Positions 3,614 to 54,208 of a DNA stretch of 60,568 nt are shown here, piece after piece. The notes below the pieces were generated by a model that saw only the letters and a list, made by a program, of their open reading frames with translations, had not been told where the DNA came from and did not search any database. The stretch comes from a virus. The stretch lies in the IMG/VR virus record IMGVR_UViG_3300030060_006589, positions 1-60,568 of that record; one strand, 5' to 3'. The stretch's first letter is position 1, and every line of letters begins with the position of its first letter. The translations under genes and the position numbers were made by a program.

Positions 3614-4551
3614 TATCTTCTTCTTCTTGGAGTTGGTGTAGATACTCTAGGTCTACCCGCAGATGGTGCAGGCACACTTTGTTCTTTAACTTTAGCTTCT
3701 GCGTAAGCCAGAGGCTCTTGATCCCTTAAGGATATACCTATATAAGAAAGCATTCTTTGAGCTATTTCCATATGAGTTTTAGTTGGTAAAGTTAGCTGAG
3801 TTGTGTTTGATGATGATGGATTATAAACATATTGATCATTAATTATTGTATATCCCCAGTGTGGTGCTGGCGGTTTACCTATGTAAACAAGAACGATTCC
3901 ATCGGTGTACTGACTTACTGTTTCATCTGTTATTTCTACAATTTCAGCAGCACCTCCCTGAATAGCTGATTGTGACTCATATCCATATATTTCAAATCCT
4001 CTATCAAACATTACAGCTACATAGTTGTGTTTATCAGGATAAAGGACCTCACTATGTAATCTATAGGATAATTGATCATGTGTAATAAGGTCTATCTTAC
4101 CCTTTATTAATTCTTTATTTTCACCCCTTTCAGTTTTATCACCTCCCTTATCATTAAGTGCTTCCTGTTCATAATAATAACCAGGCAACTCAACAGTACC
4201 TCTATAAAGTCTTAAGAAATGCAAATACTCCCCCTGTTCCTTTTTTGTTAGCTCATTAATTTCATTAATAGGATATTTCCAAACCCCGTAACCATTTTCA
4301 TCTGAATCATATGTTAGTTGCTCTTTCATAACTACACTTCTTATATCATCAAGAACAGAATGATTCTGAACCAAAACCCTGGAGCTTCTTCCAGCAGCCT
4401 CAGCCTCAGTCTTATATCTAGCCACCCTGTCGTGTATTAAGTCCAACTGAGCCTGTTGTGCTAAAATATCAAATTCTGAAGGTTTTATAAACCCTCTTTG
4501 CTCTTTGTTTGCTATAAGCTGTACAAACCTGTATAATTCATCTATCGTCAT
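3613..4551 (-). CDS. Neck/ring-type structural protein (312 aa)
   Basis: The protein starts MTIDELYRFVQLIANKEQRG and continues with a helical IKPSEFDILAQQAQLDLIHD segment. This opening is one I associate with a neck/ring protein encoded just before the larger ring protein in Bacteroidota podoviruses. The C-terminus is a basic proline-rich tail ending RVSTPTPRRRR, which may bind DNA or another virion part. It is the first gene after the terminator-promoter element at 4569-4613, so it begins the neck-tail transcription unit. Confidence 0.65.
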   Translation of the reverse strand: MTIDELYRFVQLIANKEQRGFIKPSEFDILAQQAQLDLIHDRVARYKTEAEAAGRSSRVLVQNHSVLDDIRSVVMKEQLTYDSDENGYGVWKYPINEINELTKKEQGEYLHFLRLYRGTVELPGYYYEQEALNDKGGDKTERGENKELIKGKIDLITHDQLSYRLHSEVLYPDKHNYVAVMFDRGFEIYGYESQSAIQGGAAEIVEITDETVSQYTDGIVLVYIGKPPAPHWGYTIINDQYVYNPSSSNTTQLTLPTKTHMEIAQRMLSYIGISLRDQEPLAYAEAKVKEQSVPAPSAGRPRVSTPTPRRRR

Positions 4552-4568
4552 TACTCGTTTATTTTAAA

Positions 4569-4599
4569 CAAATATAGCAAAAAAAAAGGAGGTAACAAA
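4569..4599 (-). promoter_or_regulatory. Bacteroidota-type promoter for the ring/tail genes
   Basis: On the minus strand, TTTG (plus-strand CAAA 4596-4599) is followed after 19 bases by TATATTTG (plus-strand CAAATATA 4569-4576). This matches the Bacteroidota -33/-7 consensus exactly. The ATG of the 312-residue ring gene lies 17 bases further on. The -33 box overlaps the hairpin of the terminator at the same place. Confidence 0.7.
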
Positions 4600-4613
4600 T
4601 CTGTAACCCCCTT
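4579..4613 (-). terminator. Rho-independent terminator after the capsid module
   Basis: Plus-strand arms 4586-4597 and 4602-4613 can pair at 10 of 12 positions around a four-base loop. On the minus strand the hairpin is followed by nine T residues (plus-strand A-run 4579-4587). It lies just downstream of the stop of the 298-residue gene at 4639. Confidence 0.7.
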
Positions 4614-4638
4614 TAAATAGTATTATTAAATCTAATGA

Positions 4639-5535
4639 TTAATTCATAGATCCCATTTTTACTTTGATTTGGTCTATAATTCCACTTCCTCTGTCAGTCA
4701 TGCACATGTCTGCTAAGCAGTCTAAAGGCTTAACCCCTAAAGGAACATGAGTTATAACAGGACGTTGATTTCCTTGGACCCAAGTGATTTTTGAAGAGTC
4801 CCAATCTAATATACCAGCATCTTTACCTCTAAGTATAGTTTGTTTAATCTCCATTTTAGGATCATCTAGTCCAGCTATAAATTTAACAGGATCTTTTTCT
4901 GCCATAACTTTCATATCGTATCTTATCTCATCAGTAGATTTATCAATATTAATACCTAAAACCTGTGCATATCCCAACAATTTATTTAAAGGCATTTCAA
5001 ACACAGTTCTTAAAGCATCCATAGATTGAATTTCTTTTTCCATTTTTTCTTTAGCATCTTTTTCAAAATCTAATCTCTTAAATACGGGGGGTCCTTGAGA
5101 TATTCTATCAGGATTACTAGCGTTAGCATTACACATATCTAAATACTTCTTTAAAGTAGGATTGGTGTAATCAACCATTAATAAACCATTACTAAATGTT
5201 ATGGGAGATTTAACCATTGAGTCCTCTTTTTGTTCATCCTCAAATATAGAAGGCTCTCCAGGTATATATCTTATTTTTCTATTTATTCCCTTTTCTGAAT
5301 CATAAATAACGTCTTCTGCCTTTAACATGTGAACGATAGGGAATTTTGTCCTACCCGTTTTTCTATCTTTACGTTCTTTATATAATCTATATGTAGTTGG
5401 TTTTCTAGAATTTTTTTTACCTTGATTAAGGTTAGCAATACCATGGGTATTTGATTTAGTTGCTGTAGGAGTCTCAACAGTTTTCGTAACCACTGGCTCT
5501 ACAGTCTTTGTAGTTGTTGTTTTTTTCTTTGTCAT
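4639..5535 (-). CDS. Virion-associated protein of unknown role (298 aa)
   Basis: The N-terminus is a Lys/Thr-rich unstructured leader (MTKKKTTTTKTVEPVVTKTV) of about 50 residues. A globular part follows, with a TNPTLKKYLDMCNANASNPD segment and a helical region around residues 160-240. The N-terminal leader could contact DNA or the capsid interior. The gene lies between the decoration-protein candidate and the ring genes and is the last gene before a terminator, so it belongs to the capsid transcription unit. I do not recognise a named family. A capsid-associated or head-completion role is likely by position only. Confidence 0.6.
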   Translation of the reverse strand: MTKKKTTTTKTVEPVVTKTVETPTATKSNTHGIANLNQGKKNSRKPTTYRLYKERKDRKTGRTKFPIVHMLKAEDVIYDSEKGINRKIRYIPGEPSIFEDEQKEDSMVKSPITFSNGLLMVDYTNPTLKKYLDMCNANASNPDRISQGPPVFKRLDFEKDAKEKMEKEIQSMDALRTVFEMPLNKLLGYAQVLGINIDKSTDEIRYDMKVMAEKDPVKFIAGLDDPKMEIKQTILRGKDAGILDWDSSKITWVQGNQRPVITHVPLGVKPLDCLADMCMTDRGSGIIDQIKVKMGSMN

Positions 5536-5573
5536 TTCTAAAATTAAATTAAAATTATTATTAAGATACCTGT

Positions 5574-5596
5574 GGAGGGAGAAAAACTCCCCCTCC
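5574..5596. other. GC-rich hairpin between capsid genes
   Basis: Arms GGAGGGAG (5574-5581) and CTCCCCCTCC (5587-5596) pair with a two-base bulge around an A-rich loop. It lies between the decoration-protein candidate and the 298-residue gene. No long T-run follows on the minus strand, so it may attenuate or protect transcripts rather than fully terminate. Confidence 0.5.
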
Positions 5597-5652
5597 TTAG
5601 ATATGTTCTTTATACTGCCTGTATATCATTTCAAGACAGTTACTAATTAGAA

Positions 5653-6063
5653 TTAGTCAGCAGCCGCTATTTGATCTACAACATGGATTCCTGTAATATT
5701 GCTATCAACAGAAGCTCCAGTTACAGCATCATAAACAACGATAAAACCATTATCTCTTGCTATAGGCTCGTTAACAGCCTCAGCAATACTCATCATGATA
5801 TCTTTTGCGGTAAAATCACCACAATCCAATACCACAACATCTAAATGATCATCACCAGCATCTCCTTCAGCAGCAAATGCTTTTTTCATTGGCTTGAAAA
5901 ACAATGAGCATCTACCACTTGCACCAGTCACTGCACCAGCAGTTGATGAATCACCAACAACTAAGCCTTGAAAAGCACTAAGTGGGTACATAACTGAACC
6001 ATTAGCTGGGTCATCGTCATTAGCCAACGTACTGTCCTTTCTAAAATATAAATACTTTTCCAT
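5653..6063 (-). CDS. Capsid decoration/auxiliary protein candidate (136 aa)
   Basis: This small protein directly follows the major capsid gene, 27 bases downstream. It begins MEKYLYFRKDSTLANDDDPA and contains a beta-rich core with VVGDSSTAGAVTGASGRCSL and a C-terminal helix plus strand. Small Gly/Ala/Asp-rich beta proteins at this position are commonly capsid decoration or auxiliary proteins. A role on the capsid surface is therefore the best guess, but no specific family is recognised. Confidence 0.55.
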   Translation of the reverse strand: MEKYLYFRKDSTLANDDDPANGSVMYPLSAFQGLVVGDSSTAGAVTGASGRCSLFFKPMKKAFAAEGDAGDDHLDVVVLDCGDFTAKDIMMSIAEAVNEPIARDNGFIVVYDAVTGASVDSNITGIHVVDQIAAAD

Positions 6064-35207: not shown

Positions 35208-35627
35208 ATGAAGAAGATATTTTTTATTGCGTTGATGCTGACGGGTCAGCTATTCGCACAAATTGAAAGTGGTTTATATTACTCTGAAGATGTATATATG
35301 TCTGACGTTGATGATTTTATGCCCTATAACACTGTAAAAATAGAACCAACTCAATATTTAGATATAACAAATGACGGTATAAGAATATTTCCCCAAAACA
35401 CTTTTGGAGTGTATCACGCATGGAAACATATAGGAATGTTCGCTGGCTATGACACATATATATTAACCAATAACACAAAAGTCTGTCATGTGCCAGAAGA
35501 GAGTATTATATACTATTTTTATGAATATGAATATGATCACTTTGAGTTTAAAAGACTTATAGAATTTCGTAACGTAACACGAATCTCAGACTCCGTAAGT
35601 GGTAATTATTTAATGGAACTAGAATGA
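35208..35627 (+). CDS. Secreted/periplasmic protein of unknown role (139 aa)
   Basis: The protein begins with a classic signal peptide: MKKIFFIALMLTGQLFAQIE, with probable cleavage after A17 (LFA/Q). The mature part is acidic and aromatic, with VYMSDVDDFMPYNTVKIEPT and then IIYYFYEYEYDHFEFKRLIE. Only one cysteine remains after cleavage. It would reach the periplasm early in infection. A role in superinfection exclusion or envelope modification is a guess. The stop overlaps the next gene by four bases. Confidence 0.6.
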   Translation: MKKIFFIALMLTGQLFAQIESGLYYSEDVYMSDVDDFMPYNTVKIEPTQYLDITNDGIRIFPQNTFGVYHAWKHIGMFAGYDTYILTNNTKVCHVPEESIIYYFYEYEYDHFEFKRLIEFRNVTRISDSVSGNYLMELE

Positions 35628-38709: not shown

Positions 38710-39102
38710 TTAGTTGAATTTTGCAAGCATAATATTGTCTATGCTTTTTTGAACTTTCTTTTTGTCAGCGTCTAATTGAAACATTATATTGGCTTTGAAC
38801 CTTTCCTTTTCATCACCGCTTTCAAATATTATGACTGTGGGTATGCAAGTTATATTATACTCCTTCTGAAGATTAGGATACTTACCTATATCAACTCTGT
38901 ACTTTGAGCAGTCACTTAAACTAGATAGATCCGCAAACTCATTAGAAGAGTTCCAGTCTACCCAAAATTCTACAGCTACAATGTCTTTAGCTATTTTATC
39001 ATTAAAGTTGTCAGAATTTATAAACTCTTGACCTGAAGCTTTAGAGCCAATAATAAGGACTAATATAAATATTAGTAATAATTTTAAATCCATATATTTC
39101 AT
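38710..39102 (-). CDS. Exported thioredoxin-fold protein without CxxC
   Basis: The protein begins with a basic/hydrophobic signal (MKYMDLKLLLIFILVLIIGS) and probable cleavage near ASG/Q. The mature part is thioredoxin-like, with VAVEFWVDWNSSNEFADLSS, then SDCSKYRVDIGKYPNLQKEY and NITCIPTVIIFESGDEKERF. It has the cis-Pro 'IPT' site and the strand order of thioredoxin, but the usual WCxxC is WVDWNSS. Two other Cys (SDC, ITC) remain. A redox role is therefore doubtful; a binding or chaperone role in the periplasm is likelier. It overlaps the upstream gene by four bases. Confidence 0.65.
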   Translation of the reverse strand: MKYMDLKLLLIFILVLIIGSKASGQEFINSDNFNDKIAKDIVAVEFWVDWNSSNEFADLSSLSDCSKYRVDIGKYPNLQKEYNITCIPTVIIFESGDEKERFKANIMFQLDADKKKVQKSIDNIMLAKFN

Positions 39103-40174: not shown

Positions 40175-40737
40175 TATTCCATAAATTTAGGTCGACCCGC
40201 TTCTCCCTCGGCACCTGTCATTATTTCTCCCTTCCTTCCTTTTTCCTGCATTTCCCTGCTATACATTTCTTTCAGCATCGCTTCAAACTGATTAGGATAT
40301 TGTCTCGCAAAATTATCCATACTTTCCATGTACATTATCAACTCTCTTTGTTTTTGATCTGCTCCTTGCTCTGCTGCCTCTTCCATTCTGTTTTCTTTAG
40401 CCATCTCTTCATCATCTGTCTCCTTCAATCTTGACTCTCCTATTGGCATTTCTGATCCCACCTGAGGAATTGTTTTCTTTTTTAATGGTACTCCTCCGTC
40501 TTCATACTGCTGTGCCCCTGAGTAGCTTCTAGATCTAAAAACTGGAGATGCAGGTGGTGCACCTTCAAATTGAAATCTTTCACCTCCTCCTCCACCAGAA
40601 CCAGAACCAGAACTAGAACCAGAATCATCATCACTACCAAATAAAAGATCATCTATGAAACCAATTACTCCACCACCATTATATGTAGCAGGCTTTTTAT
40701 TAAGACCTCCGCCCATGTATTTTTTATTTATTTTCAT
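40174..40737 (-). CDS. Gly-rich virion-like protein with DGG motif (187 aa)
   Basis: The protein starts MKINKKYMGGGLNKKPATYN with a basic leader, then GGGVIGFIDDLL, a GSSSGSGSGGGGG linker at about 40-50 and QQYEDGGVPLKKK. The rest is an acidic charged helix. The leader plus 'Y-D/N-G-G' motifs match those in the internal virion proteins elsewhere in the window. It overlaps its upstream gene by four bases. It may be a minor virion protein. No family is recognised. Confidence 0.5.
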   Translation of the reverse strand: MKINKKYMGGGLNKKPATYNGGGVIGFIDDLLFGSDDDSGSSSGSGSGGGGGERFQFEGAPPASPVFRSRSYSGAQQYEDGGVPLKKKTIPQVGSEMPIGESRLKETDDEEMAKENRMEEAAEQGADQKQRELIMYMESMDNFARQYPNQFEAMLKEMYSREMQEKGRKGEIMTGAEGEAGRPKFME

Positions 40738-41402
40738 TTTATAAAGTATTTAATTTTACCATTTTCTATATATATATCTTCAGGCTTTCTAATAACTTGA
40801 CCTTGCAGATTGTATAATAATCCAGATCCTTTTGATTTGTCTAACACCTCTTCAATGCCTGAATTGCAAGGTAGACCACTATCACAATCTATATACTCAG
40901 TTATAAACTCTGTCTCTACTATCGTATCTGTAACATATATCTCAACATATTCTATAACATCTATAAACATAGTATCTAAAACATCTGCATACACAGTATC
41001 TGTTACATATATGTATTCTGTCTCTATTACCGTTTCTATTACTGTCTCTACTATCGTATCAGTCTCATATATATATTCATACTCAATTACAGGTATTTCT
41101 ACATATACTGTATCACAATCTTCTGATGGAGGTGGTCCACACTCTTCAGGAGAAGTAGGCTCTGTGTCTTGCTCATCGCTTCCATCAGCACAATCTTCCC
41201 ACCCATCGTTAAGATAAAAAAGTCCACCCTCTCCATTAGGAACACATCCATTAGGAGAATATTGAGTCCAGTTTGCTGGATCGTCTCCACAGAAAAAACC
41301 ATTTTGCTCTACACAATCTAAACACAGTTGTTGAAAGTCATAACCTTGAGAAAAGGAAAATGAGCTTATAAACGTAACAAATAAAAATATCAACCTATTC
41401 AT
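40734..41402 (-). CDS. Exported surface protein candidate with LDLa-like Cys module and type IX-like tail
   Basis: The 222-residue protein has a signal peptide (MNRLIFLFVTFISSFSFSQG, cleavage near SFS/Q) and a Cys-rich module with GWEDCADGSDEQD, the 'C.DGSDE' signature of LDL-receptor class A calcium sites. Next comes a Thr/Val/Glu/Tyr stalk with repeated 'V(T/E)DT(I/V)(V/Y)' units. The tail reads LLYNLQGQVIRKPED and YIENGKIKYFIK. That ending parallels the type A type IX secretion tail of Bacteroidota ('vYnl.GQ....p...YI.nGK...'). It would thus reach the host surface. The tail is a recalled pattern and no experiment is implied. Confidence 0.6.
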   Translation of the reverse strand: MNRLIFLFVTFISSFSFSQGYDFQQLCLDCVEQNGFFCGDDPANWTQYSPNGCVPNGEGGLFYLNDGWEDCADGSDEQDTEPTSPEECGPPPSEDCDTVYVEIPVIEYEYIYETDTIVETVIETVIETEYIYVTDTVYADVLDTMFIDVIEYVEIYVTDTIVETEFITEYIDCDSGLPCNSGIEEVLDKSKGSGLLYNLQGQVIRKPEDIYIENGKIKYFIK

Positions 41403-41404
41403 AA

Positions 41405-42478
41405 TTAAAATATTAAATAATTAAAACCAAACTTCACTTCATATACTGGCTTCATCCAGTAACGCATGTGAGTTCCCTCTACAAACATTCCTAAGTGCTT
41501 AGTTACTCTAGATCCAAACACTAAACCAGCATCCCACTCTAAATTATCCCAATCTTCAACTCCATACTCAAAAGAATATTCATCTAAACCGTAATGAAAA
41601 GGCATGCAATTAGCCCAAACATGTAACCATAACTTATCTGTATACTTATAATATGCTAATCCTATAACAGCACTTAATTCTTTTTGAAGTCCAAGATTTT
41701 CTAATTCTCTTTCATTGTATGTTGCAACTGCATCTCCGAAGTAGTGGTTGAAGAACTCATCATTTGAGGTAGCTACTAAAACGGAGTCTCCACCACTAAC
41801 ATCGTACCAATTCTGGTTCACGTAAAAACCTTGAACCCATTGTTCTGGAGCATACCCAAAGTCTTGAGCCAGTTGTTGAAAACTAGACTCGCCAGGCACC
41901 CAGAAGTCTTCTATAGGGGTAACACCATATACTGGATGTAAACGAAAGACTCCACCTAATGTAAAGTCCCAATTACCTTTATTTATTCTAAACCTAGTAT
42001 CAAACGATGCATATCGTAAGTTAACTCTCTGATTGTCAGTGAATTGAGCTTTTGTAACGCAACTATTACCTAAGTATCTTAACCATAGTTTTTGATCAAC
42101 AAATTTCTCACCTCTATTTCTTATAAAAGAAAAGTTAAGTAAATATTCCCATCCTACAGCGTTACCTAAAGTAACATTGTCAGCTACAGCTTTTTCAGTT
42201 CCGTAATACCAAGTCTTCACTTTATACTCATAATCAAATCTAGCAATTTTTCTGAGTCCTACGGTTAAATTATAATCATAAGGGTGAACAGTAGTAACAT
42301 CTTCATAACCTTTATCTTGAGCTGTGTAGTCTCCCCTTTCAGTAAAAGAGGTATTCATAGTCATTGAAGTGTAGAAAGTTGAGTATTTAAAAAAGTCTCC
42401 CTGACCGAAAGCGGTAGAAACACAAAATACTACAATCATCATTATTATGTATAATATTTTACTTATATCTTTTTTCAT
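41405..42478 (-). CDS. Outer-membrane beta-barrel-like protein with signal peptide
   Basis: The 357-residue protein has a signal peptide (MKKDISKILYIIMMIVVFCV, cleavage near AFG/Q), followed by aromatic-rich alternating strands. Examples are YNLTVGLRKIARFDYEYKVK, VNLRYASFDTRFRINKGNWD and DAGLVFGSRVTKHLGMFVEG. It ends VKFGFNYLIF, with a C-terminal Phe and alternating hydrophobic residues, as outer-membrane barrels do. This suggests an 8-16 stranded barrel in the host outer membrane. It is two bases upstream of the secreted surface gene, forming an exported pair. It could mask receptors, block superinfection or aid release. Confidence 0.65.
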   Translation of the reverse strand: MKKDISKILYIIMMIVVFCVSTAFGQGDFFKYSTFYTSMTMNTSFTERGDYTAQDKGYEDVTTVHPYDYNLTVGLRKIARFDYEYKVKTWYYGTEKAVADNVTLGNAVGWEYLLNFSFIRNRGEKFVDQKLWLRYLGNSCVTKAQFTDNQRVNLRYASFDTRFRINKGNWDFTLGGVFRLHPVYGVTPIEDFWVPGESSFQQLAQDFGYAPEQWVQGFYVNQNWYDVSGGDSVLVATSNDEFFNHYFGDAVATYNERELENLGLQKELSAVIGLAYYKYTDKLWLHVWANCMPFHYGLDEYSFEYGVEDWDNLEWDAGLVFGSRVTKHLGMFVEGTHMRYWMKPVYEVKFGFNYLIF

Positions 42479-42499: not shown

Positions 42500-45400
42500 T
42501 TAATTATTACCTCTAATACGTTTTAATTTTTCTTCATCAGCTGCTGACCACATTCTCATCATATACAGAACTTCTGGGTTTTCCATTATATTTTCTATAT
42601 ATTCAGGATCTTCTTTTTCATATCTTTTTCCATTACTATCTCTACCTTCCAATGTGTGTCTCAAGTCTGTCTGCTGCTGTTCATTTAATCCTGTTTTACC
42701 ATTTTTTAACATCCACATCATATAAGCTGCTGTCATTGGGTTTCCTTGTTTATAATCTGTAATAGCTTGCTGCACATCAGAACTAGCTGTTGAGTAATTC
42801 CAATTCATAATAACCATTCTATTTATTCTCTTTTTTATTTCTCCCCTATTCCACATCAGGTCATCTATTACCTCATCTTCTCCAAGTCTACCACGCAGCT
42901 CCTCCTCTACCTTATTTATTATTTCGTTTGATCTAGAAAGGAACATTTCCGCAGGGTCAAGATATCCATCCCCATCTAAATCTGAAAGACGCATAGTTTT
43001 ACCCTCAGAATCTATCCATTCATTTGTGTCAGGATCTTGTCTTACATTCATTTCTTTCATAACAGCATCATAAGAAAGTTTTAAATTGGCTTGGAACCTC
43101 TCTTCTGTTTTTCTTACATGATCCGCTTCAGATTGTAGTTTTGACTTTTTGTTTCTAAGAAGGTCAATGTCCCCAACATATCTTTTTGTTGCTGGACCTA
43201 AAAAGTCATTCATAAATAAATTCATTTGATTACCATACTTCTCCTTTTCAGTGTCACTTAATCCTCCTTGACTAGCCACATACATATGGTTAATAGCGGC
43301 ATACCAGGGGTTTCTATCCATATTAGTAAATAAAGATCCTAAAGCTGACTTTGTAGTTGTAACTGGAATACCACCCTCAGCTAATCCTATTTTGTCAAAC
43401 CCTTTAGAAATATCTTTTAAAATTCTATCTTCATATGAATCAGACAACCCTCTGTATTGATTGTAACCATTTTCTGCTTCAAATTTATCTGACCAAACAG
43501 GTTTATTGTAGAAAGCATCATAGTTCCATAAAACTTTTGCAGTTGCATTTAAAAGAGGATTTGAAGCCATTAAATCTCTAGGATTACCAGCACCAGTAGG
43601 TATAGCTTTCTGTAGTATTCTACCGTAAGAATTTTTATCCTCACCTCTACCCCAAGGAGTATATGAGAAAACATCTTTTCCTAAATTTCTAAAATCTGAC
43701 CCCGTTACATGTTTAAACATCATGTCTTCAGTTATAGCTCTAAACACATTCATTCTAGCATCACTAGGTATTTTAAAGTATCTAGGAGTTATAATTTTAT
43801 TGTCAGATAACTGTTCTTTTATTTCAGCTATTCTAGCATCTCTTTCTGGACCTACCTCCATGCTTTTAGCTATTCTAAGTTGATCTTGTAAAGCTGTTTC
43901 TTTTTCTTGACTAATTATATCTGTAACCTTACCAGGTAGTATTACGCAGTGGTAATTCTCTAAGTCATAATCATTTATATGATTAATAAAATATCTTCTA
44001 TTTTCGTATAACTTTTGTCTTATTTCCTTTTCTGACTCAGTATCACCATTAGCTATAGCTTGATTTAAATTCTCTTGTAATCTCTCTTCTTCATCTTCAT
44101 CTAATATATCAAAATACTGTAAGTTATAAGCCATAAGACCAGCTCCAAATGTAAGAGCCCATTGTGCTGTATCCCAAGCAAATTGAGCGGGGTTTTCAGA
44201 AACATATCTAACACTCTTGTCTAACACCTGTGACGCAGCATTAAGATAAGCAAAACCCATAGCGTCAACAGCCTTGATAGCAGTTCCTCCATTATTAAAG
44301 TTAGCGTAATCAACAGCGTTAGCTACAGCTCTTTTCTTGATAGCTATAAGATCTTCTCCTGTAGGCTCTTGACCATCATTCTTATCTTTGTATTCTTGTA
44401 CATATTTTTTAGTCCATCTTTTGTAATTAGCTAATCTACCTGTCATCTCAGATGTTGAGTTTGGAGCAGAAATAAATCTTTTAAATATATCCCAACCACT
44501 CTTAGTGTTAGGATTTACATAAGGAGCCTCATCTCCATACAAACTATTCACCTGTTCTCTTGCAGCTTGTTGTCTAGCGTCAAACTCAGGGAGTTTATTT
44601 GCGGGATCTGCCATTATTTCTCTAACTCTCTTTTCTAATTGAACCTCATCAATAGCTGTATCTTCTACATAATCCATCAAACCGTATCTCGTCATAAACT
44701 CTAAAGATCCTCCAAGCATCTTATACTCTTGACTAAGTGGACCGTTTGTTGCTGCATCTATCATAACAGACAGCCAGTCTTTTCCTGCTACCGCAAATTT
44801 TGTAGCTAAAGTTGATCCATACCACTTACCATTATAAGTGTCTGTAAATATAACTTGTTGAGCGAAGTCGTAGAAAATATTAGCAATAAAAAATGCAGGA
44901 GCACCAACACCAGTAGCAAACACCTTAAGTATACTTCCAGCACGCCTAAGAGGACTAAGAGCTTTTCTTGCCCACCCAGATGTAGGAATCCCGTCTCTAG
45001 GATTAGCAAATAAGCTTTTATAAGCAGCATTTTTCATAGCAAATCTTATATTCTTTCCATTCTCACTGTAGCTCATTTCAATGTGACCATCTGCAACTTG
45101 CTCACCATCTTTTAATATGTAGCCAATATCTTCACCTTTAAGCTTTAGTCCATTTATATATTCAAAACCCTGACTAGCTATAGCAGATATCATATTGTAT
45201 ATACCTTTTCTAACTTCATTTTCAGCTCTTAATTTAGCTCCTATAGCTAATGTATTCTGAAGAAGCTTAACAGGATCCATATATAAAACTTGATCACTAC
45301 CCTGCTTTAAGGTTTTTATAGGAGACTGCATATGATCTCCCTTCTCAGATCTTCCTGACCTTCTTTGACTAATTATATCTCTCTCAGCGAATATTACATG

Positions 45401-48400
45401 GTCAACAAATTTTCTAGGATTATATTTTAAATTTTTAAGCTCATTATAAGTTGCTTCATCTATAAGACCAGCTTCAAAGTTTCTTTTTAACTCATTACGA
45501 TACTCTTCAAAAAGTTTGTCAGTAGTTTCTCTTATTATATTAAATCTATCGCCCTGTTCTTCCTTCATTGAGTCTATCATACCTTGTGCAAGCTCTTTGT
45601 TCATCATCATGTAACCTTCACCTTTAGGGTTTTTAGTTTCAGGATGTTTTAGTCTCCAAGGGAACTTTTTCTTCTTAGTAGTTGGGTCTAGCACTGGTTT
45701 AATTCCAGGTTTCATTCTTTCACTAATGTCTTTACCATCCTTATCTTTAGTTAAATATTCTAAATAATAACCTGAACCATCCTCATTTTTCTTAATATTA
45801 ATATTAGAGTTGTCTTTATATATGTTATCTAATTCACTCTCAGCTTGTTTTATTGCTTCTTTTATAGCAGATTTCTGATCTTTTTTAGCTTTACCAAGTT
45901 TTTTAGATAAAGAATTTAAGTTTTTAATAATAGCATCAGCTGCTGACTTTTGAGCATCATATAAATTATCAATCTCTATTATTCTCTCTAATGTAGATAG
46001 TTGACCCACTAGTTTTATTTGAGCTGAAGATAAAGTTCCCCATATTCTTTTATTAGCCTGGTCTATAAATTCTTTAGCTGTTCCTGGAACTGTTAACCAT
46101 AAAGTTATAGAAGCGAGAGCGTTAGAAGCTGTCTCTCCAAGGTTTAAATCCTTGCCAATGTTTCTGATAGATCTTTTTATTCTATACTTACTATCTACTG
46201 TAAGCTCTTTTAAAGCAACAAACTTATCATCTAAAGTTTTTCTAAAGTTCTTTAGTCTTCCAAAGAAATTATCTTTACCTCTTGAGAATGCCGCATCCTG
46301 ATCTTTCTGTAAATTAGATAGAGCTTCAGCATAATCTTGTAGAGTCCAATCCTTAGTGTCAACTTCTGAGTTTGAAGAATCTTCTATTTGATCCTGTTCT
46401 TCTCTAGTTTTTTCTAAGTGTTCATCTAGTTCATCTAATTTAGATGCTTCTTCTTCTGTCAGCTCAGTTTCTCCAGCCATATTGGATTGTTTAGGATTGA
46501 ATAACCCTTCTTGAGTTGATAAAAAGTCTCTAAATAATTCTCTTATCTCAGCTTCTTGATTGGGGACAAATTTATCTCCCTCAGCCTGAGCTTTCTTTAA
46601 GTAATCTATAGCTGCATCTATAGCTGTAGCAACACTAGAAGTGGCTCTAAGAGTAAGAGAAGCTGTTTTTAAGGCAGCCCTAATAATAGGTACAGACATA
46701 AATGGATCTGCATAAGCATTACCACCTAAGTCTTTATATATCTGATCTAGTTTATCTGCAAAGTCTGTTAAGATTTGAAAACGCTGAACGCTTCTGCTAG
46801 AATACTCATCTCCTGTTCTGAGATCTGAGATGTCCTGGGCGTTGTCCCCGCTATTAATAGCTCTTTGCCTTCTGGCAAGCTCTCTATTGATGTCTGTGTC
46901 AAACGACTTTTCTTGTCTTGTAGTTGTTTCGTATTCCCCATTTGTAAAAACTTTTGTATTAATATAACCAAATTCTACGGTATTAAAAATATCATCACCG
47001 TATTTTTCTTGTATTTCTCTTATTGCTTTATTTACTCCTTCAGTCCATTTAGAACCAAGGTTATCTATATTTTCCATCGTTAAACCCTCACCCATTGGCT
47101 CCATAAGATACTCAGGAACAAATTGCATTGACATGCCTACAACCTCTGCTTGTTGATTATAGTTAAGAGTTAAACCCTCCACGCCATTAGGACCAAAATG
47201 CTCATTAGCAAACTCTCTAGCTTCAGTAAGAGTCATAGGCTCAGAAAATTCTATTCTTCTAAAAGGTCTAGCATTAGGATCTTGCTCTGTTGTAACCTTA
47301 GATATAAATACAGATTCTTGCTCATTATTGATAGCTGTAGTTAACAACTCATCAACTAAAGGAGATATATCTGTTCCAGCATCAACTAGCATTTCTAAGT
47401 TTATAGTATCTTCTGTTTGATTCATATATATACCTTCTGACTGATATGGTCTACCCATAGCACCTAACTGCTTAACTATAGCGTCTAAGTTCTGAAGTGC
47501 TTGATCCATTCTAATAGACCCTTGCATAGTTTCAGCTATGACAGCAGCAATTTCTTCATCGGTAGCATTTCTTTCTAAAGCCTTTTGAACAGCTCTAGCC
47601 GCAGCACTATATATTCTGTTTTTCTGTTCTGGACTTGTATTCCCTATAAATGTACTAGCACCTATCATAACTCTATCTGTTATGTCAGCAGACCTAACAG
47701 CATTTTCCATAGTTGACTGCTCTTTAGCTCTCACATCCCCAGTAAATCCAGACTCGTTATATATTTGTTTTTCTATAAACCACATAGAAGCCTGTAGATC
47801 GTCAGGGTTTAAGTTTAACTTCTTAGCAGCTATAGCGTATACACTTTGTGCAAAAGCAAAATCTTTATTACCTACTGTTGTTTCTTGAGACTGTCTTCTT
47901 CTAAATGGTACAAACCCTCCTTGAGAATATAATATTCTTCTCATATTTCTAGCAGCCCAAACATCAATAGTAGCACTTCTATCTCTTAAAGATAAGTTAT
48001 TGTAAAACTGTCCTGTTTTATTAGCTGGATTATTAGATAACCAATTACCATATAAAACCCTAACAATACCTGAAGTAACTACTGGAAGACCGAATGATTT
48101 CCCGTTTTTCTTTTTTATAGCAGCTACAACATCTTGATCAGAAGAAGCCTGTCTTATAAGTTCTTTAGCTTTAAATAAAGCTTTTTTGCCTGTACCAAAA
48201 ACACCTTGATCATACTGAGCCATTATATCTTTAACTTTTGCATCGTACACTTCTAAAGACTCGTCAAACTTACCCTCTGAGTAAGATCTTAAAACTTCAG
48301 TAGACTTTCTAAAGATAACCTGAGGCGGTGCCTGTGGAGATGTAACACCTAGCAACTCAAAGAATATTGGTGCATTTCCACCAAACTTCTGTTGTATTAA

Positions 48401-51400
48401 GTCTTTTGTTTTACTGTACCACCCTGTAGCCTTTTCTAAATCTATTTTAGAACTATTAACGTTAAAGTCTTGAATAAGTAAATTTGAAGCTAATTCTATC
48501 TTTTGTTGCTCTGACATACCCGCAAATATAGGTGCTGCTCCAAAATTAAAAGAAAGAGTTTTTATTACAGGTTTGCCATTCTTCAACACCACAAAACCTC
48601 CATCAAATAATATTTGCATAGGATCTGACAAGCTAGGGTCGTTTTTCATGTCAACATTATTATGCTGATCTATTTTTCTCTGTAAGTTATCTATTTGTTT
48701 AAGTTCATTTTTAGTATAATTACCTCTAACAACTTTAGGGTTAACTCTTTGTTTAGCTATTTTATATATCTCTTTAGCTTCTATCTCATTATACTGATCT
48801 GGATACCTTTCTTGTAAAGCTTCAAAGAATTTAGCTCCAGTCACTTTATTAGTTATGGCTTCCTCAGCAAACTTAACAACCCCATCATTATTAAATAAGA
48901 ATCTTTTTTTAAGAGACTCTATACTTTCATCTTTTACTTCATCTAATCCCTTTATAGACTCAACAGCATTATTGAAAGCTACAGAAATAGCCTGTCCCGC
49001 TTTTAAGCTTGCTTTTAGGGTTTTTAAGAAGGTTTCCCACGCCACTGGTCCTAGACCCATGGTGATATCCATATATAGGTTTTTGCCTTTATTTCGGTTT
49101 ATTCTATCTAATTCTGAGTCAATACCTCTAATTGTTCTATCTACAAGAGTCTCTGTGTTTTCTGCTGATTTTATATTTGGATCAAGATCAGATTCATGTG
49201 GGTTTGTAGATGCGTTTATTAAGTCTATTACACCAGCTAAATCTTCTGTTATCTGATCGGTAGAAGCCATTAGATCCATAACTGGAAGACCCTGCATAGA
49301 TACTTTTAAAGTTTTTATAGCTTCCTTTTTTGTTCTTCCTAATAATGTGCCAGAAGTTGATTCAACCCATTCTTGTTTTCCGTATTTCTTAGATAAAGAA
49401 AAAGGTCTTCCATTTACAGTTCCTTCGTATAATTTAGTAGATCTATTGTATTTAAATGGAGTGTCTTGAACAATTTCAGCTCCCGCTTCTGTATCTACCT
49501 CTGCTTTTGCTGGTTGTTGGAATACAAACTCATCAGGAAGTAATCCTATTTTTTGATCTGCAAAAGGTCTATCTTGAGGTCTTACATAATCAGGATCCCC
49601 CTTCTGAGGAATACTACCGTCCTCTCTTCTTAAACTTTGATTAAAATTAACCCATGAGTTTTGACCTCTAGTTTCTGTTGTCATAGCTCTCCTAGCGTCA
49701 TGACTAAACATTCTAGAATGATTAAGCCAAGCATTTTCTTCCCCCTTAACACCAAAACCATTACCTAATTCTGTATGACCAAAAAAGTCGTGAACAGCTC
49801 TAAATAAATCGTTAACTAATAAAGGTTCTCCATTAACATCAGTAAATTCAGTTCCTTGTAATAAAGGGTTTTCTTCTCTCATTTGATCTGATATCTGCTC
49901 CTGACCAAACCCAGCCTCTGTTCCAAATATATATAAATGCTTATTATCTCTAACATCCTTTATCATTTCATCGCTATTAGCATACGGTTCTCCTTTACCC
50001 TTATACACTTCTATAGTATACCCAGCATTAATAAGAGACTGATACTGCATAGTTGTTTCATTAGCTAGAGCTGTGTAAGCTTTTTTAACTTTTGGATCGT
50101 TAGGATTATTTTCCATAGACTCATAAGCGTCAGCTATATTTTTAGAATTTTGCTCATTAATCTCAGTAACTGGCTGAGGATCAGAATGCTGTATACCTAG
50201 TTGAGGGGAATTAGTATTTATATAGTTTCTTGTTATTGAAGAAGTTTCTGGATTAGGATCATTAAACAATCTATTACCAGGATTTACAGAGCTTGTATTA
50301 CCAGCAGAACTTCTTACTGACTCATCTTCAAATAAAGTTAACTGTCTACCACCAGAAGCTGGCATAGGACTTGTTATTCTTGAAATTAAATCACTTAACT
50401 CTTGATCATTATTAATAGATAAATTTACTTTACCAGATTTTATATCTTCCACCACAGAAGGGTTACTCAACATGCTTAATACTTCATTTTTAGATATAGA
50501 TGTTCCAAAGTCTGCATCAGCCCCACTAATAACATATAAAGGTTTTTTGTCACGTTCATCATCTTTAACTGTAGGCAAACCTCCAGGACCTTCTCCAATA
50601 TTAAAAGCAGGACCTCCAGGAGTATCTCCTCCGTCATCATCACCGCCATCTAAAGCACTTAAGTGATCTGGAGTTTCACTTACCATGTTATCCCAATCTT
50701 CATCCCCCCATAATCTTAATTGTTCTCCTTGAGGCGACTTTTTGTAATCATCCATAACACCTAAGAAGTCTTGAACTAATTTAGTATCTTCAGGATTTAA
50801 ACTACCTGAGTCTAACATATCTTGAAAGTTCTGCTCTATACTGTTAGCTGTCAATAATGTAAAACCACTAGATAACCCTACACAAATAATAGCTGTAGTC
50901 ATTAACTTATTTATTCTCTCGTCTTTTGATTGACCAACAGTCTGCATTAAAGCTTCCTCCCAGTTAAAACCCATATTAGTTAAGTTCTCAACAAACTCAC
51001 CTGAATACTCAGCTAATAACTCAGCACCACCACCCGCAAGTATTCTTGGAGGTAGAGTAGTGATTTTAACTCCTGGTTTACCAAAGTTTCTATATAATGT
51101 TAATAACCCTCTAGTTACAGGAGTTCTTTTAAATAAAGAGTTTACAATTTGTTCTGTTGCTCCCTCAGCAGCACCCATTCTCCATGTAGCCTGATCACCT
51201 GATGTCATCTCAAAAGCTACAGCTCCACGAACTACATTCTCACTAAAATTCCACCAAAATTTACCTACATCTGTAGTCTTAGCAGCAACCATAACATTCT
51301 TAATCATAGGCACCTTGGTAAGAGTTTTTAACCCAGCACCAGCTATAGGCATAGTAGCAATCATCTCAATCATAATAGGAAGTGTAGTACCCACACCTTG

Positions 51401-54208
51401 AGCCACCATATCATTTAAGCTTATTTCTCCAGCAGCCTTTTGCTCATCTGTCAACTCTATTCCATAAGCATTAGCTATATCATCATAATAATTAATCATG
51501 TCATCTTCAGTGTGAACATGTCTTTTATGTACAGCGTGACCAAAACTTTCTACAGCTTGTCTTAAAAATAATCCTGTGCCTGTTTTTTCTGACCACTCCT
51601 TTCCTGGATCAACATTGAATGTTAATACATTAGATATAGCTACTAGCTGAGTTTGATTTTCATAATATCTAGCTTTAAAGTTTTTAAGAACTTCTATCAT
51701 AAACTCAGCGTCTTCTTTAGGTCCTTCCCCAAAGTTTTTAGCTACAAATAAAGGGATTGATTTATCTATTGTTCTTAGCTGCTGTCTAACTCCGATAACA
51801 CCAGTGTTTCTTTCAGACTCAGAATCAAACTTTTCTCTTAAAGCTCTTGCTCCAAAATCTAAATTTGCACTGTATAATGTTTCTCCACCTGGTCCTAATA
51901 CATCACCTGACTGAACCTGTATAAAGCTATACATTTCTTCTAGAGTCATTTTTTTACCACTAGGAAGAGTCATCTTTTCATTCTTCCATATATCCTGATT
52001 CATTAACTCAGTCGAGTATAAACCATCTTGAGCTCTCATTAATTGATCAACAAATGAACCGTAGTCATCAGCTTGATTTAAAGCCTGAATAAATTGACTC
52101 TCTTTATTTGTTATTTGTTGTTGTATTATTTTATCTTCTTGTGTAGCGGTAGGTCCTTCTATTCTTTCTCCAGACTGATCAAACATTTCAGTTCCCTTTT
52201 CGTAACCTCTTTTCTGTCTATTTTCTTCTGTTTTATTTCTAAGAATAGTTATTTCTTGATTTAATTTAGTTGACTGCTCTATATACTCCTCTTCATCGAT
52301 CTTTTCATTTTGCCTTTGCAGTTCTAAATTTTGAAGTTTTTTAGTTTTATCTTTTAAAGCGTTGTTTAGTTTTAACTGAGTCTTATAAGTTTCTGCATTT
52401 TGCCAATCTATATCAGCAATAGTCATGTTAATATTACTTAACCTGGAATTTTCCATATCAGACACCATGTTCATAAACACTTTGTCATTAAGCATTTCTT
52501 CTGTGCTCTTAAACTTAACTCCTCTATTACTCTGGTAATTATTTAATACTTTTTTGTATTCAGTGTCAACAGAAAATTGATCACTTAAATCTTGCTGTAT
52601 TTCGCTTTTAATCTCTCCTATAACCAGATTCATTTGGTAACTCTCAGATCTATCTATACTTGCATTTATTTGATCGTTACTGCTATTATAAAAAGCTACT
52701 CTTTGTTCGTGAGTCTTTAAACCTCCATAGGCTGTTTTAACATCATTCACACCATGCTTGTTAGAAGAGGATAATATTTGTGATGTCAACTTCTTCTTAG
52801 CTAGTTTTATATTTTCTATCTTATTTGTTAACTCCTCATACTTAGTTTTCTGATCTTCATTAAGATTATTATAATTTACATTTCCAAGTATAGTTTTCTG
52901 TTCCACCCCCTCTTCATATACAGCTTCTGGTCTTTTAAATTTATTCTTCTTTTGCTCCTTGTATAAGTGCTTACCACCAATAAGCTCACTTCTTTCACCT
53001 AGCAAACTAGCCATATGGTTATCCATGTTCAAGATAGTCTCATACTGAGCCAAACCATCAGCATCTAAAGATTGGTATAATTGCTCCTCATCTTCTATTG
53101 ATAACCCAGAGTCTACTCCGTATTCTGATAATATTTCCTCGTTTTGACCTCCCCCTAAAGGAACTTCATACATGTACGTATTATTATTAGCATTAAGACC
53201 AGAAAGTAGATCTTTACCATTTTCAGATATAGATGTTGTTAAGGGGATCTCTAACCCCTCATAATTAATCATACCTCCGTCTTCCACATTCTCTAGTAAG
53301 AATTGAAAATTTTCAGGGTTTTGACCATACAAATCTACAGCTTTGTAAAAATTAGAATCTCCTTCTACTCCGTAAAATTGTTCAAAATTTTGATTAAACT
53401 CTACCTTTTTTAACTCTGCTTGAATCTCAGCATCATTTCTAGATTTTTCTCTTTTTTGAAGGTCATGTTGATTTTGTATATCTATTTTTAGATCTGCCAT
53501 TATATTGACAGGAACCTCTGACGGATCTACAGGTGATCCATTTTTAGTAAAAGTCTTTAGTATATAGTCATAGTCCCAAGTGTCTTGGTCCTCGTTTATA
53601 ATTGGCTCGTCAGGAACTATGGCTCCATTTTGAGCTTTGAATGGTTTATTTGTTGGGATTTCTACAACCTTAGAAGCTGGCGATGTTGTCATTTTACCTC
53701 CAGGTTTCAATACGCCCTGGTACCCACCGTCTGCATAAACATGTATAGGATAATTTTGTCTACCCTCTAATGATCTAGGTTTTTTACCTTTAAAATTAAG
53801 AGTAGCTGAGGTCCCAGGCTTTGCCCCTTCTAATCCTTTATACAACTCTTCATCTGTGCTTAAATTAAGATCAGTTACAAAGGCTCCATCTTCAGCTGTA
53901 AAACCCTTATTATTTTCGCTTATTTCTAATTGCTCCGATTCTCCAGTTTCCGATTCTAATAAACCATTTGCCGAATCTTTTTTTTTTAAGGCGTAACGGT
54001 TAACTACACTTGTTATGTCACTATCACTAGGTGTGTATTCTGTTAGTGCACCGTAAATGTCTTTAACCATGGTTTCATAATCACCATCGTACTGGGCAAA
54101 TATCGAGTCAATCTCAACTTGAGTCAACCTATGATCAGGTTTAAACTTCTTGTAGAAATCTATTACGAATTTAATAGCGTTTTTATCTTTTTGATATACT
54201 ACTGCCAT
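42500..54208 (-). CDS. Giant polyvalent-type internal virion protein (3902 aa)
   Basis: This is a single uninterrupted frame of 3902 codons. The start has a short helical module (FYKKFKPDHRLTQVEIDSIF), then 'AEDGAFV' and 'KAQNGAIVPD' motifs. Hydrophobic segments occur near residues 940 and 1110. Near 1470 is DLFRAVHDFFGHTELGNGFG and then TTETRGQNSWVNFNQS, a domain known from phage polyvalent proteins. Around 1890-2140 lies a DUF7178-like stretch with FNFGAAPIFAGMSEQQKIEL and SMWFIEKQIY. Around 3100-3400 is an LPD38-like region (GAPAFFIANIFYDFAQ). It is probably packed in the capsid and ejected with DNA. Domain names are recalled, not searched. Confidence 0.75.
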   Translation of the reverse strand: MAVVYQKDKNAIKFVIDFYKKFKPDHRLTQVEIDSIFAQYDGDYETMVKDIYGALTEYTPSDSDITSVVNRYALKKKDSANGLLESETGESEQLEISENNKGFTAEDGAFVTDLNLSTDEELYKGLEGAKPGTSATLNFKGKKPRSLEGRQNYPIHVYADGGYQGVLKPGGKMTTSPASKVVEIPTNKPFKAQNGAIVPDEPIINEDQDTWDYDYILKTFTKNGSPVDPSEVPVNIMADLKIDIQNQHDLQKREKSRNDAEIQAELKKVEFNQNFEQFYGVEGDSNFYKAVDLYGQNPENFQFLLENVEDGGMINYEGLEIPLTTSISENGKDLLSGLNANNNTYMYEVPLGGGQNEEILSEYGVDSGLSIEDEEQLYQSLDADGLAQYETILNMDNHMASLLGERSELIGGKHLYKEQKKNKFKRPEAVYEEGVEQKTILGNVNYNNLNEDQKTKYEELTNKIENIKLAKKKLTSQILSSSNKHGVNDVKTAYGGLKTHEQRVAFYNSSNDQINASIDRSESYQMNLVIGEIKSEIQQDLSDQFSVDTEYKKVLNNYQSNRGVKFKSTEEMLNDKVFMNMVSDMENSRLSNINMTIADIDWQNAETYKTQLKLNNALKDKTKKLQNLELQRQNEKIDEEEYIEQSTKLNQEITILRNKTEENRQKRGYEKGTEMFDQSGERIEGPTATQEDKIIQQQITNKESQFIQALNQADDYGSFVDQLMRAQDGLYSTELMNQDIWKNEKMTLPSGKKMTLEEMYSFIQVQSGDVLGPGGETLYSANLDFGARALREKFDSESERNTGVIGVRQQLRTIDKSIPLFVAKNFGEGPKEDAEFMIEVLKNFKARYYENQTQLVAISNVLTFNVDPGKEWSEKTGTGLFLRQAVESFGHAVHKRHVHTEDDMINYYDDIANAYGIELTDEQKAAGEISLNDMVAQGVGTTLPIMIEMIATMPIAGAGLKTLTKVPMIKNVMVAAKTTDVGKFWWNFSENVVRGAVAFEMTSGDQATWRMGAAEGATEQIVNSLFKRTPVTRGLLTLYRNFGKPGVKITTLPPRILAGGGAELLAEYSGEFVENLTNMGFNWEEALMQTVGQSKDERINKLMTTAIICVGLSSGFTLLTANSIEQNFQDMLDSGSLNPEDTKLVQDFLGVMDDYKKSPQGEQLRLWGDEDWDNMVSETPDHLSALDGGDDDGGDTPGGPAFNIGEGPGGLPTVKDDERDKKPLYVISGADADFGTSISKNEVLSMLSNPSVVEDIKSGKVNLSINNDQELSDLISRITSPMPASGGRQLTLFEDESVRSSAGNTSSVNPGNRLFNDPNPETSSITRNYINTNSPQLGIQHSDPQPVTEINEQNSKNIADAYESMENNPNDPKVKKAYTALANETTMQYQSLINAGYTIEVYKGKGEPYANSDEMIKDVRDNKHLYIFGTEAGFGQEQISDQMREENPLLQGTEFTDVNGEPLLVNDLFRAVHDFFGHTELGNGFGVKGEENAWLNHSRMFSHDARRAMTTETRGQNSWVNFNQSLRREDGSIPQKGDPDYVRPQDRPFADQKIGLLPDEFVFQQPAKAEVDTEAGAEIVQDTPFKYNRSTKLYEGTVNGRPFSLSKKYGKQEWVESTSGTLLGRTKKEAIKTLKVSMQGLPVMDLMASTDQITEDLAGVIDLINASTNPHESDLDPNIKSAENTETLVDRTIRGIDSELDRINRNKGKNLYMDITMGLGPVAWETFLKTLKASLKAGQAISVAFNNAVESIKGLDEVKDESIESLKKRFLFNNDGVVKFAEEAITNKVTGAKFFEALQERYPDQYNEIEAKEIYKIAKQRVNPKVVRGNYTKNELKQIDNLQRKIDQHNNVDMKNDPSLSDPMQILFDGGFVVLKNGKPVIKTLSFNFGAAPIFAGMSEQQKIELASNLLIQDFNVNSSKIDLEKATGWYSKTKDLIQQKFGGNAPIFFELLGVTSPQAPPQVIFRKSTEVLRSYSEGKFDESLEVYDAKVKDIMAQYDQGVFGTGKKALFKAKELIRQASSDQDVVAAIKKKNGKSFGLPVVTSGIVRVLYGNWLSNNPANKTGQFYNNLSLRDRSATIDVWAARNMRRILYSQGGFVPFRRRQSQETTVGNKDFAFAQSVYAIAAKKLNLNPDDLQASMWFIEKQIYNESGFTGDVRAKEQSTMENAVRSADITDRVMIGASTFIGNTSPEQKNRIYSAAARAVQKALERNATDEEIAAVIAETMQGSIRMDQALQNLDAIVKQLGAMGRPYQSEGIYMNQTEDTINLEMLVDAGTDISPLVDELLTTAINNEQESVFISKVTTEQDPNARPFRRIEFSEPMTLTEAREFANEHFGPNGVEGLTLNYNQQAEVVGMSMQFVPEYLMEPMGEGLTMENIDNLGSKWTEGVNKAIREIQEKYGDDIFNTVEFGYINTKVFTNGEYETTTRQEKSFDTDINRELARRQRAINSGDNAQDISDLRTGDEYSSRSVQRFQILTDFADKLDQIYKDLGGNAYADPFMSVPIIRAALKTASLTLRATSSVATAIDAAIDYLKKAQAEGDKFVPNQEAEIRELFRDFLSTQEGLFNPKQSNMAGETELTEEEASKLDELDEHLEKTREEQDQIEDSSNSEVDTKDWTLQDYAEALSNLQKDQDAAFSRGKDNFFGRLKNFRKTLDDKFVALKELTVDSKYRIKRSIRNIGKDLNLGETASNALASITLWLTVPGTAKEFIDQANKRIWGTLSSAQIKLVGQLSTLERIIEIDNLYDAQKSAADAIIKNLNSLSKKLGKAKKDQKSAIKEAIKQAESELDNIYKDNSNINIKKNEDGSGYYLEYLTKDKDGKDISERMKPGIKPVLDPTTKKKKFPWRLKHPETKNPKGEGYMMMNKELAQGMIDSMKEEQGDRFNIIRETTDKLFEEYRNELKRNFEAGLIDEATYNELKNLKYNPRKFVDHVIFAERDIISQRRSGRSEKGDHMQSPIKTLKQGSDQVLYMDPVKLLQNTLAIGAKLRAENEVRKGIYNMISAIASQGFEYINGLKLKGEDIGYILKDGEQVADGHIEMSYSENGKNIRFAMKNAAYKSLFANPRDGIPTSGWARKALSPLRRAGSILKVFATGVGAPAFFIANIFYDFAQQVIFTDTYNGKWYGSTLATKFAVAGKDWLSVMIDAATNGPLSQEYKMLGGSLEFMTRYGLMDYVEDTAIDEVQLEKRVREIMADPANKLPEFDARQQAAREQVNSLYGDEAPYVNPNTKSGWDIFKRFISAPNSTSEMTGRLANYKRWTKKYVQEYKDKNDGQEPTGEDLIAIKKRAVANAVDYANFNNGGTAIKAVDAMGFAYLNAASQVLDKSVRYVSENPAQFAWDTAQWALTFGAGLMAYNLQYFDILDEDEEERLQENLNQAIANGDTESEKEIRQKLYENRRYFINHINDYDLENYHCVILPGKVTDIISQEKETALQDQLRIAKSMEVGPERDARIAEIKEQLSDNKIITPRYFKIPSDARMNVFRAITEDMMFKHVTGSDFRNLGKDVFSYTPWGRGEDKNSYGRILQKAIPTGAGNPRDLMASNPLLNATAKVLWNYDAFYNKPVWSDKFEAENGYNQYRGLSDSYEDRILKDISKGFDKIGLAEGGIPVTTTKSALGSLFTNMDRNPWYAAINHMYVASQGGLSDTEKEKYGNQMNLFMNDFLGPATKRYVGDIDLLRNKKSKLQSEADHVRKTEERFQANLKLSYDAVMKEMNVRQDPDTNEWIDSEGKTMRLSDLDGDGYLDPAEMFLSRSNEIINKVEEELRGRLGEDEVIDDLMWNRGEIKKRINRMVIMNWNYSTASSDVQQAITDYKQGNPMTAAYMMWMLKNGKTGLNEQQQTDLRHTLEGRDSNGKRYEKEDPEYIENIMENPEVLYMMRMWSAADEEKLKRIRGNN

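Follow-up and report, generated by a model that had tools for sequence, protein, structure and literature searches.

In SprB/SprF-type pairs, a type IX secretion system (T9SS) adhesin is encoded with a neighbouring outer-membrane protein. Phage-encoded T9SS cargo genes were reported from Cryophage in 2020; the cargo consists of enzymes (an endoglucanase and GH39) and a PA14 protein, carries type A domains, is found in variable islands and was proposed to exploit the host system (PMC7468147). T9SS-domain proteins near BACON genes had been described in crAss-like phages in 2019 (PMC6949934). Short T9SS C-terminal domains (CTDs) were reported in 2025 as unusual to Prevotella intermedia. These run for 40–51 residues from the PT/GI cleavage site. 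Motifs B and D each have an invariant Gly, Tyr and Ile are conserved, motif D reads GxYI and motif E is basic. The predicted fold is a sheet of three strands, in some cases with a helix in the first loop; cleavage and glycosylation of these domains have been shown, and models place them on PorV in the manner of long CTDs (PMC11969387).

The window, which is the whole stretch of 60,568 nucleotides that we analyzed (IMG/VR record IMGVR_UViG_3300030060_006589), has terminase and structural genes and thus the context of a phage genome. Its kin are Elemovirus, Callevirus phi38:1 and Maribacter phage Panino (terminase at about 40% identity plus a virion structural protein). The late operon is tightly packed: a 3902-aa ORF (42500-54208, minus strand) is followed by a gene for an outer-membrane protein (OMP) and then by a gene for a 222-aa stalk protein with a short type IX-like C-terminal signal (40734..41402, minus strand). 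The stalk gene starts two bases after the OMP-like gene (41405-42478) and overlaps the next gene by four bases. In place and size, the single 3902-aa ORF resembles the giant gene that comes last among the structural genes of Elemovirus and its relatives.

A first-pass annotation, made from the sequence alone and giving no strand, had listed a signal peptide, a Cys module with a CADGSDE motif, a Val/Thr/Asp/Glu stalk and a YNLQGQ end, and we found all of them in the 222-aa ORF. The order of parts is signal peptide, Cys module, stalk, DCDSGLPC junction and C-terminal end (GIEEVLDKSKGSGLLYNLQGQVIRKPEDIYIENGKIKYFIK). The signal peptide (residues 1-19, ...SFSFSQ; 41346..41402, minus strand) was read from the sequence; the N-terminus is hydrophobic in all relatives and residues 2-18 form a helix in the predicted model. 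Judged by the ORF and its homologues, this is a real gene and not a chance reading frame. We lean towards an account in which the stalk protein is phage-encoded T9SS cargo that would be displayed together with the barrel encoded next to it and would remodel the surface of the infected cell. Like the Cryophage cargo, it would be a phage protein with a T9SS sorting signal; unlike that cargo, it is non-enzymatic and stalked, and it has a short signal and a constant place in the late operon beside an OMP gene.

Searches of IMG/VR with the protein and with the OMP recovered about 90 viral contigs, mostly fragments, that carry the pair with the same order of parts at 45–99% identity. There was no homologue of either protein among 50,697 phage records. 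The family appears to be a large group of marine viruses of Bacteroidota, and we assume that the hosts have a T9SS from the kinship to Flavobacteriaceae phages. Whole stalk proteins vary from 148 to 310 aa; the head and the tail are conserved and the stalk is variable. Median pairwise dN/dS was lowest in the Cys module (0.21), followed by junction plus tail (0.31) and the tail taken by itself (0.38), so by this measure each of these parts is under purifying selection. When we looked for a signal peptide combined with the tail pattern among 2031 viral ORFs, 62 distinct C-termini matched, and the sole match from outside the family (1/62) was a fasciclin protein of a T4-like phage. We also sought long type A cargo in the records of 23 relatives and found none. 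Two contigs have a 235-aa protein between the OMP and stalk genes that looks by eye like a GH16 glycoside hydrolase (L029, 9077-9784; L042, 9052-9759).

The first-pass annotation had proposed that the phage sends this protein to the host surface by the type IX system, with masking of receptors, exclusion of further phages or cell-cell effects as possible roles, and had suggested matching it to TIGR04183 and TIGR04131. Neither model matched the stalk protein, any of 66 aligned relatives or the isolated tails, an outcome that the annotation had itself named as counting against its proposal. The curated type A cut-off (TIGR04183/PF18962) was not reached by the protein, the 66 relatives or the tails, nor was the type B cut-off (TIGR04131/PF13585) by the window's family; phage proteins that share the stalk and junction do reach the type B cut-off. 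TIGR04183 and TIGR04131 model signals of 70–85 residues, and the phage tail is much shorter, in the 40–51-residue range. The proposal finds nothing in the standard profiles, but it is well supported by the other evidence described below.

The putative short type IX signal covers residues 181-222 (40737..40862, minus strand), with a probable sortase cleavage before G182, and the protein end has the pattern YNLxGQ...YIENGKIKY. We compared it with the P. intermedia short CTDs through their published description rather than by sequence alignment. The window tail has 41 residues after S181/G182-I183, and the +2 residue is Ile in 50, Met in 10 and Leu in 6 of the 66 relatives. In motif B (YNLQGQ, residues 197-202; 40797..40814, minus strand), position 197 is Tyr or Phe and G201 is invariant (both 66/66). 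Motif D has Tyr or Phe at 211 and Ile at 212, again in 66/66, while position 209, which is Asp in the window, is Gly in 47, Ser in 17 and Asp in 2 of 66. The basic residues of motif E are kept in about 85% (K216 in 56/66, K218 in 55/66). A structure prediction of the tail, which had also been suggested, gave three strands and a helix over residues 180-222 at pLDDT 77-86 (AlphaFold; helix 183-193, strands at 195-196, 203-204, 210-213 and 216-219).

From sequence and model, then, the last 41 residues appear to fit the short CTD class on most features, with the motif-D Gly departing in the window copy. The likeness lies in the roughly 41 residues after an S/GI-type site, the Y..G of motif B, the YI of motif D, the basic motif E and the predicted three-stranded sheet. 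Unlike the P. intermedia domains, the tail is phage-borne and known here from sequence, has lost the motif-D Gly in the window, is more acidic and has an inserted helix.

An HMM built on 25 long CTDs from two Flavobacteriales metagenome-assembled genomes (MAGs) distinguished between the 66 phage tails and 1031 other viral C-termini, with an AUC of 0.988. The window tail scored 5.1 bits in this model; 99.1% of decoys were lower (0.9% do as well). Searching 299 Flavobacteriales genomes with a profile of the tail gave eight matches, five of which are the extreme C-terminus of unrelated signal-peptide proteins (L136-L139 and L141; L140 is similar-looking). A comparison of the phage tail with a profile of these host short tails gave E 2.4e-12, a value that is not independent since the host set was chosen by the same phage profile; an unrelated OMP used as control gave a probability of 0.5%. 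Phylum-wide, the tail profile found only chance-like matches outside Flavobacteriales. The five small Flavobacteriales proteins (L136, L137, L138, L139 and L141) end in a short tail that is unannotated (YYDLLGREIK...LYIKNGKKY), which suggests that short T9SS signals may exist beyond Prevotella and have been overlooked by current profiles.

The tail follows a stalk of variable length rich in I/V/E/T/Y/D (residues 97-171; 40890..41114, minus strand), with pLDDT <50 in the monomer model. Foldseek found no match in the PDB for the model of the stalk protein, which we put down to the small size of the modules and to a stalk without a modelled fold. Between stalk and tail is the junction DCDSGLPC (residues 172-179; 40866..40889, minus strand), in which residue 175 is S and not the T of DCxTGxPC. 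We scanned 2.9 million viral contigs for the T version, DCxTGxPC, written as a degenerate DNA pattern and blind to the downstream sequence. The scan gave 79 readable loci. This short tail comes after the junction in 58 of them and a type B tail in 20; the remaining locus breaks off where its contig stops, and none has any other ending. In other words, 78/78 untruncated loci run into a T9SS-type end, short or type B, and TIGR04131 matches all 15 of the 15 distinct type B tails behind the junction. The junction motif is absent from 299 Flavobacteriales genomes. Because both ends share one junction slot and the type B end is already recognized, the short tail is likely to be a sorting signal too. 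The short tail thus occupies the position of a recognized T9SS signal, and we regard the junction scan as the strongest evidence that we have.

The type B case is well illustrated by a 109.8-kb contig (L021), which encodes a 491-aa stalk protein with a DCETGLPC junction, the shared stalk (stalk composition is biased, which may inflate similarity between stalks) and a type B domain at 39.3 bits against a cut-off of 35. Matches to baseplate wedge, UvsX, DnaB and clamp-loader proteins identify it as a T4-like phage; a Pfam search for its terminase was without success. On this contig there are an exported fasciclin protein with a short tail (723-1343), an exported M43-type peptidase with an intermediate tail (2155-4197) and an exported stalk protein with a type B domain (4197-5672). 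Phage proteins of this type B/CHU_C kind (TIGR04131, PF13585) are like the window's protein in stalk composition, DCxTGxPC junction, signal peptide and the presence of a C-terminal sorting domain; they differ in that the sorting domain is a recognized one, the head is different and no constant OMP partner is seen adjacent. In other phages, unrelated heads are carried on the same stalk and signal.

A broader picture, for and against which we see about equal chances, is that Bacteroidota phages share modular cell-surface "lollipops" made of swappable heads, the I/V/E/T/Y/D stalk, DCxTGxPC and swappable type IX signals, which are either short and type A-like or of type B. Infected cells would be coated with them by several phage lineages that are not related to each other, with the window's lineage adding a viral outer-membrane barrel. 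Two uncultured phage genomes of >630 kb (LR745206.1 and LR756502.1) have stretches that are similar to the end of the type B stalk protein, so huge phages may carry type IX cargo as well.

The head is an LDLa-like cysteine module from C27 to C88 (41139..41324, minus strand), defined by profile matches and invariant Cys. It ends in WEDCADGSDE and includes the calcium-site motif LNDGWEDCADGSDE (residues 64-77; 41172..41213, minus strand); all Cys and the acidic D66, D70, D76 and E77 are invariant in the 66 relatives. An LDLa module had been suggested by the first-pass annotation. The window copy itself scores 14 bits with LDLa (PF00057), below the Pfam cut-off of 24.1, but the profile matches 58/66 relatives at E<=10 (best E 4e-4) and the closest bacterial version of the module passes. 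When PDB sequences were searched with a profile of the head, LA modules of LRP1 and the VLDL receptor ranked first (E 0.005–0.02). The C..DGSDE core, the invariant acidic calcium ligands and a similar Cys order are shared with LDL-receptor class A modules. The six-Cys LDLa pattern is absent from the phage head, which differs in having Asn for the fourth Cys, the last Cys shifted by about 8 residues and an inserted GDDPANWTQYSP loop.

A protein from a Crocinitomicaceae MAG (L103) is headed by two tandem copies of the module that are about 54% identical to the phage's. It passes LDLa PF00057 (26.8 against 24.1 bits) and the sorting domain PF18962 (36.2 against 27), and it also has PKD and Kazal domains. 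In a Flavobacteriales MAG, we found the same LDLa-like module in a protein with a YPN...-type end, and a version of the module in a Neomarinimicrobiota protein (L105) has the fourth and sixth Cys in canonical form. From these LDLa matches and bacterial homologues, the head is a divergent LDLa relative drawn from FCB-group surface proteins, and it probably binds calcium. The Neomarinimicrobiota surface protein (L105, 7251-9377) has several canonical LDLa modules, which is unusual in bacteria.

Such a head could also serve another purpose. The protein may be exported by T9SS and anchored for a role other than exclusion, such as calcium-dependent adhesion, by which infected cells or what is left of them would stick to particles, algae or other cells. 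In animals, modules of the LDLa type bind ligands; in Bacteroidota/FCB surface proteins, the module of the phage head stands beside PKD and Kazal domains; and the unrelated heads on the same stalk and signal in other phages would suit this role too. Adhesion would bring little obvious gain to a lytic phage, however, and so strict a pairing with a conserved OMP points to a function at the outer membrane, so we consider it an unlikely explanation, if one with a real chance.

The partner in this pairing is a 357-aa protein encoded directly upstream in the operon (41405..42478, minus strand), a predicted outer-membrane beta-barrel that is the obligate companion of the stalk protein. In every locus with enough sequence the stalk gene follows the OMP gene, mostly 2–5 bases apart, and the gap sometimes holds one or two inserted small genes. 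There are three apparent exceptions, all of them loci where the contig breaks off within the stalk gene or just as it begins. Even where the OMP has fallen to 47% identity (L266 and L267), the partner is kept with the same parts. Mean column identity of the OMP is 71% (44 relatives); it is the more closely conserved, which suggests that it may have a constant target or partner.

The OMP has no match in Pfam and no sequence match in the PDB. Its model (pLDDT 71, pTM 0.66) has about 12 strands, and the top Foldseek matches are all outer-membrane barrels (best E 1.7e-5, probability 0.99–1.0, low TM-scores), along with one viral protein at E 9e-25. The arrangement is like that of SprB/SprF pairs in that the gene for the presumed exported cargo adjoins the gene for an outer-membrane barrel, and unlike them in that the phage barrel is without a PorP/SprF match: Pfam PorP_SprF gave none at E<=1 across the 44 relatives, and an assignment to PorP/SprF is not supported. 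We found no relatives of the barrel in 199 Flavobacteriales genomes. One contig has a second, partial OMP-like copy at 59% identity downstream of the pair (L036, 10677-11075).

A late gene beside an exported barrel could instead encode an aid to lysis or release in the periplasm or outer membrane, spanin- or disruptin-like and acting with the barrel, with the tail as a remnant of a fold and not a working signal; downstream come further small late genes, one of them a DUF5675 gene. We think this improbable, because purifying selection acts on the tail and a bona fide type B signal can take its place at that junction. More doubtful still is a virion component (fibre or decoration) with an incidental signal-peptide-like start: the gene comes right after the structural genes and shares an operon with the gene for the 3902-aa virion-type protein, but neither the hydrophobic signal peptide nor the T9SS-type tail is missing from any relative, the disulphides of Cys-rich modules form outside the cytoplasm, and the stalk protein is missing entirely from related isolates with annotated structural genes. 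Equally doubtful is a reading of the tail as some short beta motif of other origin that only looks like a T9SS signal, for which one could cite the missing T9SS profile matches and the MORN_2-like YIENGKIKY: MORN_2, which we tried and rejected, matches 2/66 relatives at E 0.29 or worse, the motif is present in a single copy and strictly C-terminal, and the junction evidence, the HMM separation from decoys and the short-CTD motifs all point the other way.

For the preferred reading, as T9SS cargo displayed with the barrel, we envisage the following steps. The signal peptide would bring the stalk protein to the periplasm through Sec, and entry into the periplasm is close to certain. The host translocon and PorV would then read the module of about 41 residues (S/GI site, motif B YNLQGQ, motif D xIYI, motif E K-I-K). 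Use of a T9SS, with the host system assumed from the kinship of the phage, is very likely because of the junction scan, the short-CTD fit, the long-CTD HMM separation, the short tails in Flavobacteriales and the head shared with T9SS cargo. The sortase would probably clip the tail after S181. The stalk would then be attached to polysaccharide of the cell surface and would hold out the LDLa-like head, which probably binds calcium; we judge anchoring at the surface to be likely. The stalk gene would be co-transcribed with the late structural genes and is always paired with the gene for the phage barrel, and that the two proteins are functional partners seems to us reasonably probable. Together they would probably remodel the infected-cell surface late in infection, most likely to block further phage adsorption by superinfection exclusion or receptor masking. 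The purpose is conjectural. Late expression, conservation and presumed display at the surface, together with the phage barrel, fit an adsorption block best, and we offer this last step tentatively, as possible rather than probable.

The first-pass annotation knew of no described phage protein of this design, which goes too far. Phage T9SS cargo as a class was already known from the Cryophage and crAss-like reports, and a literature search turned up no description of this arrangement of parts, of phages with short signals or of a pairing with an OMP. What is new is the combination of a short signal, an LDLa-like head, a stalk and an obligate OMP partner. The use of type IX by phages has so far been reported only in passing, and here it would be a conserved, late-expressed device in a large group of marine phages, and T4-like and other phages combine the same stalk and junction with another sorting signal. 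If our reading is correct, remodelling of the infected-cell surface in Bacteroidota becomes directly testable, the short T9SS signal extends beyond Prevotella, and a natural signal of 41 residues becomes available for dissecting recognition by the translocon. Our results also suggest that current profiles miss many cargo proteins with short signals, in hosts and phages alike.

Two more small proteins with signal peptides are encoded in the window. One, outside the late operon, is at 35208-35627 on the plus strand (MKKIFFIALMLTGQLFAQ...). The other belongs to the same late operon as the stalk gene (38710-39102, minus strand) and has a thioredoxin fold with NSSN in place of CxxC. Because an NSSN or NASN replacement of the CxxC recurs in L266 and L267, this exported thioredoxin is apparently conserved and redox-dead.
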